From positions 1 through 39,703 of the forward strand of contig QIAJ01000057.1 of the NCBI GenBank assembly GCA_003225495.1: a stretch of 39,703 nt of DNA. Direction: 5' to 3'. The position numbers and the translations under genes were made by a program. This document shows positions 19,782 to 24,957 of the stretch, in pieces; the stretch's first letter is position 1; every line of letters starts with the position of its first letter. The notes beneath the pieces are model-generated. The model had not been told where the DNA came from. It did no database searches and saw only the letters and a program-made list of their open reading frames with translations. Origin of the DNA: Acidobacteriota bacterium (lineage in GTDB: Bacteria > Acidobacteriota > Terriglobia > Terriglobales > Acidobacteriaceae).

Positions 19782-20951
19782 TCAGTACTTCGGCATCCCC
19801 GGATCAATCTTGTCCGCCCACTCCAGAATTCCGCCCGTTAGGTTACGAACTTTCTTGAACCCTGCCTGACGCAGGAACGCAACCGCCTTGCCGCTGCGAA
19901 CGCCTGACCGGCAATGGGCGACAATCTCTCGGCTGGAGTCGAGTTCGTGAACGCGCTTCGGCAAGTCGCCGAGCGGGATGAGATATCCGTTCAGATTACA
20001 GATCTGGTATTCGTGCGGCTCGCGTACATCGAGGATGAAAAGATCTTTCTTCGAATCGAGCTGCTGTTTCAACTCTTGCACCGTTACTGTCGGCACATCC
20101 GTCGCGACGGGTGCTTCCTCCCCGCGGACTCCGCAGAACTCGTTGTAGTCGATGAGCTCTTTCACCGTCGGATTCTTTCCACAGGCAGGGCAGTCCGCGC
20201 TCTTGCGCAGCTTCAGTTCCCGGAACTTCATGCCGAGCGCATCTACCAGCAGAAGCCGGCCGATGAGTGGATCGCCCTGGCCTAGGATCAGCTTGATGGT
20301 TTCCGTCGCCTGGATAACTCCGACTAGTCCTGGGAGAATGCCCAACACTCCTCCTTCGGCGCAGGAGGGAACCAGGCCCGGTGGTGGTGGTTCGGGATAC
20401 AGGCAGCGATAGCAGGGCCCGTTTTCGGTCGCGAACACGCTGGCCTGTCCTTCAAACCGGAAGATCGATCCGTAAACATTAGGCTTTCCGGTAAGCACAC
20501 AGGCGTCATTGACCAGATAGCGGGTAGGAAAGTTGTCGGTGCCATCGGCGATGATGTCGAATTCTCGAAACAGTTCGAGCGCGTTCGCGCTGCTGAGGCG
20601 CGTGTCAAACGTTCGCAGATTGATATAAGGATTGATCGCTTTGAGCTTGTCGGCCGCCGAATCAAGCTTCTTACGCCCAACGTCGGCAGTCGTGTGAATG
20701 ATCTGCCGCTGCAGGTTCGTGTAGTCGACGACGTCAAAGTCCACGATGCCGAGCGTGCCCACGCCCGCCGCCGTCAGATACAAAGCCAGAGGAGATCCCA
20801 GACCTCCCGCGCCGATACAGAGCACCTTCGCAGCCTTGAGCTTCTGCTGACCCTCCATGCCAACCTCGGGCATGATCAGATGGCGCGAGTAGCGCAGAAT
20901 TTCGTCATTACTTAAAACGGCTTCGGGTTTGGCTTCGGTAAGGGTGGCCAT
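19782..20951 (-). CDS. moeZ: E1-like adenylyltransferase/sulfurtransferase (MoeB-ThiF with rhodanese domain, MoeZ type)
   Basis: The 389-aa two-domain protein activates the C-terminal glycine of a ubiquitin-like sulfur carrier with ATP and then transfers sulfur to make the thiocarboxylate. The E1-like domain has the ATP loop GAGGLGSPLALYL (about 47-59), D-loop DFDVVDYTNLQRQ, the conserved Cys in PSCAEGGV (C197), and four zinc cysteines (C180, C183, C254, C257). The rhodanese domain (about 295-389) has its catalytic Cys in VAHCRSGVRSG (C347). The ATG follows GAGGA. It is the last gene of the minus-strand cysM-mec-cysO-moeZ cluster, where it most likely serves CysO. A shared role with MoaD is possible. 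Confidence 0.93.
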   Translation of the reverse strand: MATLTEAKPEAVLSNDEILRYSRHLIMPEVGMEGQQKLKAAKVLCIGAGGLGSPLALYLTAAGVGTLGIVDFDVVDYTNLQRQIIHTTADVGRKKLDSAADKLKAINPYINLRTFDTRLSSANALELFREFDIIADGTDNFPTRYLVNDACVLTGKPNVYGSIFRFEGQASVFATENGPCYRCLYPEPPPPGLVPSCAEGGVLGILPGLVGVIQATETIKLILGQGDPLIGRLLLVDALGMKFRELKLRKSADCPACGKNPTVKELIDYNEFCGVRGEEAPVATDVPTVTVQELKQQLDSKKDLFILDVREPHEYQICNLNGYLIPLGDLPKRVHELDSSREIVAHCRSGVRSGKAVAFLRQAGFKKVRNLTGGILEWADKIDPGMPKY

Positions 20952-21067
20952 AAGATCCTCGGTAAGATTTTAACTGGATTCGGCGCTCGGCGGCGGACTA
21001 CCGACAACAGCGGCAACAACAGTGCGCGGGGCAGGACATTCGATGTGTCAAGGCGCCGGTCATAAAT

Positions 21068-21343
21068 TCAGCAGCCGCCGGCGATGGACGGCACTATCGA
21101 AATCGTATCACCGTCTTTCAGCGCCGTCGCTTCTTTCTGGAGGTAGCGCATGTCTTCATCGTTGACATAGACATTCACGAAAGCCCGCAGCGACCCGTCG
21201 TCGGTGTAGAGGTGACGCCTCAGCTCCGGATGTTGTGTGATGAGACCGTTGAGCGCCTCACCGACATTTTTCGCGGAAACGTCCACAGTCGCCTGTTTGC
21301 CGGCGTATTGACGGAGTGGAGTTGGAATTTGGATCTGCGGCAT
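21068..21343 (-). CDS. cysO: Ubiquitin-like sulfur carrier protein (CysO/MoaD/ThiS family) ending Gly-Gly-Cys
   Basis: Small beta-grasp protein of 91 aa that resembles mycobacterial CysO (IPTPLRQYAG, RAFVNVYVNDEDMRYLQ, LKDGDTISIVPSIAGG). The striking point is the C-terminus: the encoded sequence is AGGC then TGA. One cysteine therefore follows the Gly-Gly that must be free to be adenylated. The last codons (21068-21079) read clearly, with no sign of a frameshift. A neighbouring JAMM protease could remove the cysteine. No Shine-Dalgarno is seen before ATG 21343. Once trimmed, it would be thiocarboxylated by MoeZ and donate sulfide to CysM. Confidence 0.92.
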   Translation of the reverse strand: MPQIQIPTPLRQYAGKQATVDVSAKNVGEALNGLITQHPELRRHLYTDDGSLRAFVNVYVNDEDMRYLQKEATALKDGDTISIVPSIAGGC

Positions 21344-21390
21344 ATTGATATTAGAGATGCTATGGTACAGGTTCAGGATTCAGTTTGCCC

Positions 21391-21477
21391 GTAGGGCGAC
21401 ACTCTTGTCCGCCGCCGTTGATGTGGGTTTTGAAAAACGAAGGCAACGCCAACTCGACGGACAAGAGTGGCCGCCCC
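21391..21477. repeat. GTAGGG-led palindrome with a distal inverted copy
   Basis: In the mec-cysO spacer, GTAGGGCG is followed by an imperfect hairpin (GGCGACA/TGTCCGCC, ending near 21414). A second, inverted copy lies at 21459-21477. The 12-bp arms CACTCTTGTCCG (21401-21412) and CGGACAAGAGTG (21459-21470) are perfectly complementary. The element may stabilise or attenuate the transcript between mec and cysO. It shares its core with the palindrome at 25992. Confidence 0.6.
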
Positions 21478-21490
21478 ATCCATTGGCGTT

Positions 21491-21925
21491 TCAGGCTATC
21501 ACCGCACTTTCATCCACAAATTTCTTGTTGTCCTCGTCGGTGCCGTCGAGTTGAAATGAGTTCGTCACCACCGCCTTCCCCTTTTCCACACTCGTAATCA
21601 CGTACGAGCACCCAAACCAGTGCGCCTCCGCCAGGTCCGTCGTTGACCACCGTGCCGGATGATCGGGATGCGAGTGGTAGAAGCCGACAATGTCTTCGCC
21701 ACGCTCACGCGCCTCCCGCTGGATGCGTATCAGTTCCTTGGGATCGATGTGATAGCGATTGTGCGGCGAGTCGTCTCGAGTATTCTCCGCTCGTGCGTTG
21801 CGGGTCACGGTCTTCGATCCATCATCCGCAAAGTGCCCGAGCAGCACTCCGCAGCACTCATGCGGATAAGTTTCCTCGCCATGCTGGCGAAGGGACTCGT
21901 GGACATCGCGGGGAATTGTAAGCAT
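21491..21925 (-). CDS. mec: JAMM/MPN+ metalloprotease (Mec-like)
   Basis: The 144-aa zinc isopeptidase has a complete JAMM motif: Glu in PHECCGVLLG (E23) and the HxHPx7SxxD array HSHPDHPARWSTTD (H84, H86, S94, D97). In the mycobacterial system Mec cleaves the CysO-cysteine adduct to release cysteine and regenerate CysO. Here it could also remove the encoded C-terminal Cys of CysO. It starts 18 bp after the cysM stop, so the two are probably co-transcribed. Two adjacent cysteines next to the catalytic Glu (ECCG) are also seen in relatives. Confidence 0.92.
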   Translation of the reverse strand: MLTIPRDVHESLRQHGEETYPHECCGVLLGHFADDGSKTVTRNARAENTRDDSPHNRYHIDPKELIRIQREARERGEDIVGFYHSHPDHPARWSTTDLAEAHWFGCSYVITSVEKGKAVVTNSFQLDGTDEDNKKFVDESAVIA

Positions 21926-21943
21926 TGACCTCTGAGCTCAAAC

Positions 21944-22927
21944 CTAGCCTTCACTCCAAAATCTCTCGCTCAAATACTTCTCTCCCGAGTCAGCGAGGAT
22001 CGTAACAATCACCGCCGCCTGCTGCTTCTTCAGATTCCCCGCAACCTGCAAACAGCCCACAACGGCGGCCGCCGCCGACACGCCAAGCAGCAATCCCGAC
22101 TCCCGCGCCAGTCGCCGGGCCATCGCGTGCGCATCCTCTGTACGGACGCCAAGATTCTCGTCCGCGAGCGACGCATCGTAAATGCTGGGGACAAGAGTCG
22201 ATTCCAGATGCTTGGTGCCTTCAATCCCGTGGAACGGCGAATCAGGCTGGAGAGAAATGCAGCGAATCTGCGGATTGAGTTCTTTCAACCGACGCGTCGT
22301 GCCGACGAAGGTTCCAGTCGTCCCCAAAATCGATACAAAATGCGTGACGCGTCCCTCAGTCTGCTTCCAGATCTCGTTCGCGGTAGTCTGATAGTGCGCG
22401 CGCCAATTCGCATCGTTCGAATACTGATCGGCATAAAAATAAAGATCGGGCTGCTTCTGCGCGAACTCATGTGCAACACGGGTCGCCCCGTCCGATCCTT
22501 CTCCCGCATCTGTAAAGATGATATTTGCGCCGTATGCCTGTAGAATCCGCTTTCGCTCAATGGAAACATTCTCGGGAATGCACAGCGTAACCGGAAATCC
22601 GAGAGCGGCGCCAAGCATGGCATAAGCAATTCCGGTATTACCGCTGGTCGAGTCGAGAAGAATTTTTCCCGGCGCCAGCTTCCCGGAACGGCGCGCATCG
22701 GTTACGATGCTGGCGGCTGTACGTCCCTTCACTGAGCCCCCGGGGTTGTACCACTCGGCTTTTCCAAGAAGCTGGACGGCAGGAAGATGGCGCGTGACCG
22801 TGTCGAGACGCAGCAGCGGAGTATTGCCAATCCGCTCCAGCAGACTCTCACCTGCCAAGCGCGCTGCCTTTGCGTCAGCTCCAGCGTCAATTTGACGCGG
22901 CACCGGATTGGGAGTGGCAGTCGTCAA
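21944..22927 (-). CDS. cysM: PLP-dependent cysteine synthase (CysM/CysK fold)
   Basis: The 327-aa fold-type II PLP enzyme has its Schiff-base lysine in GGSVKGRTA (K67), the substrate loop STSGNTG (about 93-99) and the PLP phosphate loop GTTGTF. Its position at the head of mec-cysO-moeZ supports the CysM role: adding an activated serine (O-phosphoserine or O-acetylserine) to CysO thiocarboxylate. From sequence alone I cannot tell which serine ester it prefers, nor exclude free sulfide as a substrate. It starts 166 bp from the divergent gene at 23094, with a palindromic site in between. Confidence 0.92.
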   Translation of the reverse strand: MTTATPNPVPRQIDAGADAKAARLAGESLLERIGNTPLLRLDTVTRHLPAVQLLGKAEWYNPGGSVKGRTAASIVTDARRSGKLAPGKILLDSTSGNTGIAYAMLGAALGFPVTLCIPENVSIERKRILQAYGANIIFTDAGEGSDGATRVAHEFAQKQPDLYFYADQYSNDANWRAHYQTTANEIWKQTEGRVTHFVSILGTTGTFVGTTRRLKELNPQIRCISLQPDSPFHGIEGTKHLESTLVPSIYDASLADENLGVRTEDAHAMARRLARESGLLLGVSAAAAVVGCLQVAGNLKKQQAAVIVTILADSGEKYLSERFWSEG

Positions 22928-24516: not shown

Positions 24517-24957
24517 ATGAAGACCTGTCTTCAAATTCTGGCTGCAATGGTTGTTGGCATTCTGAGCGTCTCCGCTTCGCCGGCTGTTTCCGAAAATGTC
24601 CGTCAGGTGATCGACAAACAGCAGGCTGCCTGGAACCAAGGCGATCTCGAAGCGTTCATGGCTGGATATTGGAATTCGCCCGACCTGACATTTTTCTCCG
24701 GGGCCCGCGAATCGAAGGGTTGGCAGGCCGCCCTTGACCGCTACAAGAAGACCTATCGGGGAGCCGGGAAAGAAATGGGCAAACTGGAATTCGCGAACCT
24801 GCGAATCGAGATGCTAGGCCCCGAGGCCGCATTCGTACGCGGTGAATTCCATCTCACCATGTCAGACGGCAAGACGCCCCACGGCCTCTTCACCCTGATC
24901 TTCAAAAAGTTCCCTGAGGGCTGGAAGATAATCCACGATCAGTCGGCAGGAGAGTAG
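24517..24957 (+). CDS. Secreted NTF2-like protein (DUF4440/SnoaL-like)
   Basis: The 146-aa product has a signal peptide (LQILAAMVVGILSVSASPA). A single cone-shaped alpha+beta domain typical of DUF4440 follows: an initial helix VRQVIDKQQAAWNQGDLEAFMAGY, then strands around GWQAALDRYKKTY, EMLGPEAAFVRGEFHLTM and GLFTLIFKKFPEGWKIIHDQ. AGGAG lies just before the ATG, 11 bp after corA, so the two may be co-transcribed. Such proteins bind small ligands or have no known activity; none is assignable here. Confidence 0.85.
   Translation: MKTCLQILAAMVVGILSVSASPAVSENVRQVIDKQQAAWNQGDLEAFMAGYWNSPDLTFFSGARESKGWQAALDRYKKTYRGAGKEMGKLEFANLRIEMLGPEAAFVRGEFHLTMSDGKTPHGLFTLIFKKFPEGWKIIHDQSAGE

Follow-up and report, generated by a model that had tools for sequence, protein, structure and literature searches.

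The sulfur carrier CysO encoded in a 39,703-nt stretch of acidobacterial DNA (contig QIAJ01000057.1, all of which was analysed and is called the window) ends one residue beyond its Gly-Gly pair (GG). In the genomes surveyed, such tails accompany JAMM protease genes only; the exception, genome G403, lies outside the survey. The tail sequences, their variability and their association with JAMM genes were established in this analysis. Judging from these patterns, it is likely that CysO is made as a tailed precursor and that the Mec-type JAMM protease matures sulfur carriers generally, besides freeing cysteine from CysO-Cys.

The carrier gene (21068..21343, minus strand, 91 aa) matched Pfam ThiS with an E value of 2.1e-15. 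Its nearest solved relative is PDB chain 3dwg_C (1.4e-15; 93 residues, ending at GG), which we take to be Mycobacterium tuberculosis CysO. The encoded protein, of the ThiS/MoaD beta-grasp family, ends in ...SIVPSIAGGC followed by TGA (coding strand GGC GGC TGC TGA). The TGC codon past the Gly-Gly pair (21071..21073, minus strand) forms a one-residue tail, and the translated C-terminus is thus GG-C, contrary to the Gly-Gly end that marks CysO-type carriers. The gene is clustered with those for CysM, Mec and MoeZ, in the order cysM (22927-21944), mec (21925-21491), cysO (21343-21068) and moeZ (20951-19782) on the minus strand. An earlier note on this DNA had described the GGC ending beside a complete JAMM protease, a pyridoxal-phosphate (PLP) cysteine synthase and a MoeZ-type activator, and this arrangement was confirmed. 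Mec matched Prok-JAB (2.6e-26) and has an intact HxHx7SxxD motif (HSHPDHPARWSTTD, 21635-21676, minus strand; motif as given in the available part of PMC8832034). The window therefore holds what is seen with JAMM-matured carriers, namely residues encoded after GG and a JAMM gene with an intact motif.

CysO loci were read from genome contigs (80) and whole-genome searches (32), together with 30 from Chloroflexota, 40 regions that came for the most part from the window's family, and 20 new ones from that family. Seven of the last 20 had no CysO and were dropped; among them was L513, where cysM, mec and moeZ are present but the stretch separating mec from moeZ showed no CysO. Locus L508 was left out of the counts, its CysO copy (L508:3432-3704, ending GGC) having an in-frame stop near the start. 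Of the 105 distinct free CysOs that have moeZ downstream, 104 continue beyond GG, L207 being the sole exception. Tails of 1, 2 and 3 residues occurred in 16, 16 and 18 of these proteins, and 24 had tails of at least 11 residues. The first tail residue (P1') of the 104 free tails was A in 18, R in 16, T in 15, S in 12, C in 11 and G in 10, with others in the remainder. The nearest relatives of the window's CysO end in CAGCDGSLRG (88% identity), CCPG... (87%) and RCAAI (87%), and the relative from the same genus (L496, 83% identity) ends in GG-R, with CGC at the place of the TGC codon. Something following GG is the constant feature, and Cys itself is not conserved. The expectation that GGC would be fixed wherever Mec is adjacent was not borne out by this comparison of C-termini, and a fixed, functional role for Cys at P1' was rejected, since relatives vary and the seven tree rows with P1' Cys required seven changes (FastTree, 143 E1 domains). 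A local sequencing error was also rejected as the origin of the terminal Cys, because GG-Cys-stop recurs in other genomes (L013 and L017). The exact GG ending is rare (1 of 105) despite the common tails of one to three residues; if the tail were neutral, its absence would be expected more often than this. The L382 tail (SPSIAGGCCCNL) contains PSIAGG a second time, as though the last codons had been duplicated.

The tail can be as long as an enzyme. CysO, Gly-Gly, a linker and MoeZ form a single open reading frame (ORF) in 56 of 143 tree rows, the MoeZ enzyme itself thus being the tail. At least 19 switches between fused and free CysO–MoeZ were counted on the E1-domain tree. E1-type activation needs a free C-terminal glycine, and for this reason a fused carrier must be cut to offer one.

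Tails were not confined to CysO: they were also found on ThiS and MoaD, and a reading of the tail as a CysO-only feature was rejected. The ThiS of the window's genome extends 21 residues past GGG, and MoaD there is fused after SGG to a MoaE-like domain (by eye; L148/L355, G000:C170). A second CysO-like carrier ends in GGSR and begins at the next base after the stop of a threonine synthase-like ORF (L352:4112-5680, by eye), and a third (L003; L353:5122-5403) ends exactly at GG. The third carrier adjoins kinase-like and aldo/keto reductase-like ORFs (by eye). The ThiS frame past GGG (L354, G000:C97, end at about 24700-24766) overlaps a tRNA-Arg gene on the opposite strand (24735-24810).

The association with JAMM was surveyed using the Prok-JAB profile in 297 Acidobacteriota genomes. 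At a threshold of 0.001, 57 genomes gave no match, and 20 of these were used as the JAMM-free set. A weak-JAB set of 22 genomes was hand-picked with best E values of 9.4e-7 to 7.8e-4, some of which may pass the curated cut-off. The JAMM-bearing set comprised 37 genomes with a strong JAB match or with Mec in the CysO locus. Seventeen of them were selected for having CysO, a choice favouring tails, and the other 20 for a strong JAB match, mostly one per family. Carriers whose PF02597 match stopped before profile position 76 were dropped, as were G407:C73 and G406:C128, which reached 76. Four CysO rows with tails or fusions (L051, L092, L103 and L109) were excluded from the 135 carriers of the JAMM-bearing set.

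All 40 carriers in the JAMM-free genomes ended exactly at GG, one contig-edge case included (19 of the 20 genomes had carriers). The same was true of 35 of 35 carriers in the weak-JAB genomes (19 of 22 with carriers), and Acidobacteriota with no strong JAMM therefore had tails on 0 of 75 carriers. In the JAMM-bearing genomes, tails or fusions were present on 91 of 135 carriers, or on 53 of 87 when the CysO-like ones were set aside (relatedness uncorrected). At least one tailed or fused carrier was found in 36 of the 37 genomes; the remaining one, G409, has a fused CysO (L103) outside the 135. For Acidobacteriota alone, with five genomes of other phyla taken out, 82 of 120 carriers were tailed or fused, and each of the 32 genomes had at least one. 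The subset selected for strong JAB gave 45 of 75 carriers and 20 of 20 genomes. Where the fetched CysO locus showed no Mec, Mec was present elsewhere in the genome in 13 of 14 cases.

In the mechanism that we propose, CysO would be translated as a precursor with residues beyond Gly-Gly. The linked Mec-type JAMM protease would cut after this pair and expose it for adenylation and thiocarboxylation by MoeZ. Later, the same protease would free cysteine from the CysO-Cys adduct formed by CysM. We infer both the cleavage of the tail and its site from the sequences. JAMM would act as a general maturase of CysO, tailed ThiS, MoaD–MoaE fusions and CysO–MoeZ fusions, after which MoeZ or ThiF/MoeB-type enzymes would take over. 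The sequence after GG would therefore be free to vary, the single Cys of the window being one such tail. The earlier note had suggested that Mec could perform both maturation and product release through a single recognition, with the encoded Cys priming the cycle. We infer the dual role in a wider form than was proposed, tails in the surveyed genomes occurring only with JAMM, and set aside the single-recognition priming.

Mycobacterial Mec releases cysteine from CysO-Cys. The M. tuberculosis CysM-CysO-Mec-MoeZ system has the same four kinds of protein as the window, and its CysO is the nearest solved relative; that protein ends at GG, whereas here residues or a whole enzyme come after the pair. 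Other carriers, QbsE and HcyS, are matured by the JAMM proteases QbsD and HcyD. They also have encoded residues past GG beside a JAMM gene, but the tail described here is not fixed, can be as large as the complete MoeZ, and is found on ThiS and MoaD as well. The JAMM protease of Deinococcus radiodurans (DR0402, DRJAMM) cleaves MoaD–MoaE, and its mutant accumulates unused cyclic pyranopterin monophosphate (cPMP), according to the available part of PMC8832034. There, JAMM releases one carrier from a linear fusion of the kind also present in the window's genome, whereas the association reported here extends over the carriers of a genome. MoaX is active only after a cut at GG (PMC4326299, accessible part). 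Iyer et al. (2006) predicted the release of fused carriers by JAB proteins and listed an operon type (class 4c) with ThiS/MoaD-like, E1-rhodanese, JAB and cysteine synthase genes, an acidobacterium among its members (PMC1779556). Variable tails, CysO–MoeZ fusions and JAMM dependence were not found in the available sections of that paper. Ubl-E1 fusions of archaea shared with bacteria were described by Makarova and Koonin (2010; PMC2948915, in part). JAMM maturation of carriers is hence of a known kind; a literature search covering few subscription journals found neither a printed JAMM-tail rule across carriers nor CysO–MoeZ switching.

Several observations weigh against general maturation by JAMM. 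A fused CysO without any Mec match occurs in G403, a draft genome of 2.9 Mb in 650 contigs with 91% completeness. In the JAMM-bearing genomes, 44 of 135 carriers end at GG, including 10 of 48 CysO-like ones, and the tail-JAMM association is given without phylogenetic correction. Two free CysOs from Chloroflexota without moeZ downstream (L204 and L206) also end at GG, and L206 has mec nearby. The M. tuberculosis CysO (the 3dwg chain) ends at GG although its gene presumably adjoins mec; a tail is thus not obligatory with Mec. Finally, the work on MoaX did not identify the protease that cuts it (PMC4326299, in the part available).

If JAMM maturation holds, scattered pairs of JAMM proteases and carriers would come under one testable rule, by which bacterial sulfur carriers may have blocked encoded ends only in the presence of a JAMM protease. 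Such blocked ends resemble the synthesis of ubiquitin-like proteins as precursors. It is further predicted that one protease gates the supply of cysteine, thiamine and molybdopterin together in these bacteria.

The composition of the tails suggested an additional role. Cys made up 89 of 690 residues in the free tails (12.9%), compared with 2.6% in translated gap sequence and 0 of 1770 in fused linkers (59 fused tails, 30 residues from the start of each). Cys-bearing tails were found at 38 of 51 loci with cysO–moeZ gaps of 30-400 nt versus 4 of 41 with gaps of up to 30 nt (Fisher 2e-10, relatedness uncorrected). Gap lengths were estimated from tblastn, and two loci near 900 nt were omitted. Cys was most concentrated in the three tail codons before the last (17/53 at the second last, 20/48 at the third last and 14/38 at the fourth last; 9/61 at P1'). 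Since Cys peaks away from P1' and accompanies a long gap, the codons rather than the residue appear to have the role. These codons were TGT in 64 cases and TGC in 18, whereas the 23 long ORFs examined in the window use TGC 64 times and TGT 23 times.

In the window, the Cys run sits outside CysO, in a short ORF between cysO and moeZ (MTGALTHRMSCPAHCCCRCCR, 20998..21063, minus strand) whose ATG lies 4 nt beyond the cysO stop. A stretch of 10 residues in it holds 6 Cys, a density matched by 0 of 100 shuffles. The same-genus locus L496 holds a counterpart (MSVAFMNRRMTRPARCCRPCCC) at the same place, and some relatives carry the poly-Cys stretch within CysO itself, as its tail. Of 51 tail-plus-gap regions, 10 had a run of 4 or more Cys within 10 residues, where shuffles predict 0.36; the same density was reached in 5 of 10 further regions collected later. 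In antisense the numbers were 0 of 51 and 0 of 10.

A second poly-Cys ORF (MPMFPASPDRSLAFRQAPCACCCCCCR) precedes a cysK-like ORF of the window's genome by 37 nt (L420) and is kept in the same-genus genome (L437). Both elements of the window's genome are thus short ORFs with a Cys run near the stop, ahead of a cysteine-supply gene and retained in a relative, as would be expected of polycysteine attenuators. Across the family, 4 of 29 cysK upstream regions reached 4 Cys in 10, as did 3 of 29 in antisense, so this cysK leader is local. In this draft genome the frame of the cysK-like ORF (L420:2217-3200) breaks roughly 184 residues in; its best matches in relatives lie in longer open frames. Runs of at least 5 Cys stood ahead of cysM in 4 of 61 loci (L091, L093, L096 and L109). 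Runs of at least 4 were absent from all 75 downstream controls and present in 1 of 33 mec–cysO regions. A poly-Cys ORF pattern gave 41 matches in the window's genome, versus 27 when reversed; among the 24 matches examined (23 in 20 fetched regions and the window's own), only the cysK one was clearly meaningful.

These data raise an alternative that bears on the tails as regulatory elements. The Cys-rich tails and the poly-Cys ORF could be one cis-regulatory device, in which ribosome stalling at scarce Cys-tRNA adjusts moeZ, and which in some species was absorbed into the CysO frame and made harmless by JAMM clipping. We regard this as quite possible, if short of probable. It agrees with the enrichment of Cys in free tails, its dependence on gap length and its absence from fused linkers, and with the sense-strand runs before moeZ, cysM and cysK. 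At lower thresholds, however, sense barely exceeded antisense (13 versus 10 regions for at least 3 Cys, 32 versus 30 for at least 2). A strong run was lacking in 41 of the 51 regions, Cys is encoded just once in many tails, the Cys-run counts are uncorrected for relatedness, and the cysK and mec–cysO frequencies above count against the device as well.

Folding gave no help to this alternative. Among 60 gap regions, the 15 with strong poly-Cys had a mean z score of +0.4 (window +2.0, L496 +3.6), with 1 of 15 below -2. Of the 45 without a strong Cys run, 14 were below -2, and many of these follow a tail with just one Cys (TSCRL, for example). RNA structure and strong Cys runs do not coincide, and a stable structure in the cysO–moeZ gap was not seen in the strong poly-Cys loci. 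In another folding set, only the pieces of the window and of L043 extended to the ribosome site. The gap regions of L359, L360, L365, L371 and L380 (TSCRL, KSC or TNCRP tails) fold better than their shuffled versions (z from -2.0 to -3.0) and share, by eye, a GTAACCGTC...GACGGTTTTAC-like stem followed by a distant T run. An Rfam search of the window returned 0 matches, nothing was found in NCBIfam, and the literature search, covering few subscription journals, found no acidobacterial cysteine leader.

Mycobacterial polycysteine short ORFs are cysteine-responsive attenuators (Canestrari 2020, via the accessible parts of PMC9094748 and PMC13236596). They show the same layout, a short Cys-rich ORF before cysteine genes. 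Unlike them, the present element lies before moeZ within the operon, starts just past the cysO stop and is sometimes the CysO tail. Less surely than the precursor reading, the poly-Cys short ORF after cysO may be a cysteine-sensing leader for moeZ; attenuation is a good lead here. With JAMM present, whatever is encoded past GG would be disposable, which would leave the carrier gene with free coding space at its 3' end. It is tentatively conceivable that in Acidobacteriota a Cys-codon sensor of the cysteine pathway was written into this clipped tail or into a short ORF after the carrier stop. The poly-Cys element is in this sense a candidate cysteine sensor outside Actinobacteria.

A function of the tails as proteins, their cysteines binding metal or carrying persulfide before or after cleavage, seems unlikely. 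Recurring CxC and CC motifs (RCICR, CCSCC) would fit it, but it predicts neither the gap-length dependence nor the absence of Cys from fused proteins, and in the same-genus locus the Cys run is not part of the CysO frame.

Very unlikely is the proposal of the earlier note that the terminal Cys is kept, the translated protein already being the CysO-Cys product that primes the cycle with a single recognition by Mec. GG-Cys is chemically the adduct, GG-Cys-stop recurs in L013, L017 and the in-frame-stop copy L508, and the tails of L033 and L034 also begin with Cys. Against it stands the same-genus GG-R. Of the 104 free tails, 11 have Cys at P1', which is not above its frequency elsewhere in tails, and the seven P1'-Cys rows require as many changes. 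The lack of Cys in the first 30 residues of the fused tails and the presence of MoeZ itself after GG in many loci also count against the proposal. That tails are tolerated uncut and MoeZ or other E1 enzymes use the internal GG is hardly credible: G403 would favour it if its Mec is really absent, but 75 of 75 carriers are tail-free in genomes without strong JAMM and MoaX requires cleavage for activity (PMC4326299, in part).

The remaining genes of the cluster are of the expected kinds. The cysM-type PLP cysteine synthase (21944..22927, minus strand) matched PALP (6.2e-64) and has SVKGR and SGNTG motifs; its top NCBIfam match is cysM, yet under that model's cut-off. The moeZ-type activator (19782..20951, minus strand) lies just beyond the part considered in the earlier note (21068-22927). 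It combines an E1-like ThiF domain (2.9e-83) with a rhodanese domain (2.7e-16) whose loop reads HCRSGVR. A GAGGA at 20956..20960 (minus strand) is, from sequence only, the probable Shine-Dalgarno site of moeZ.

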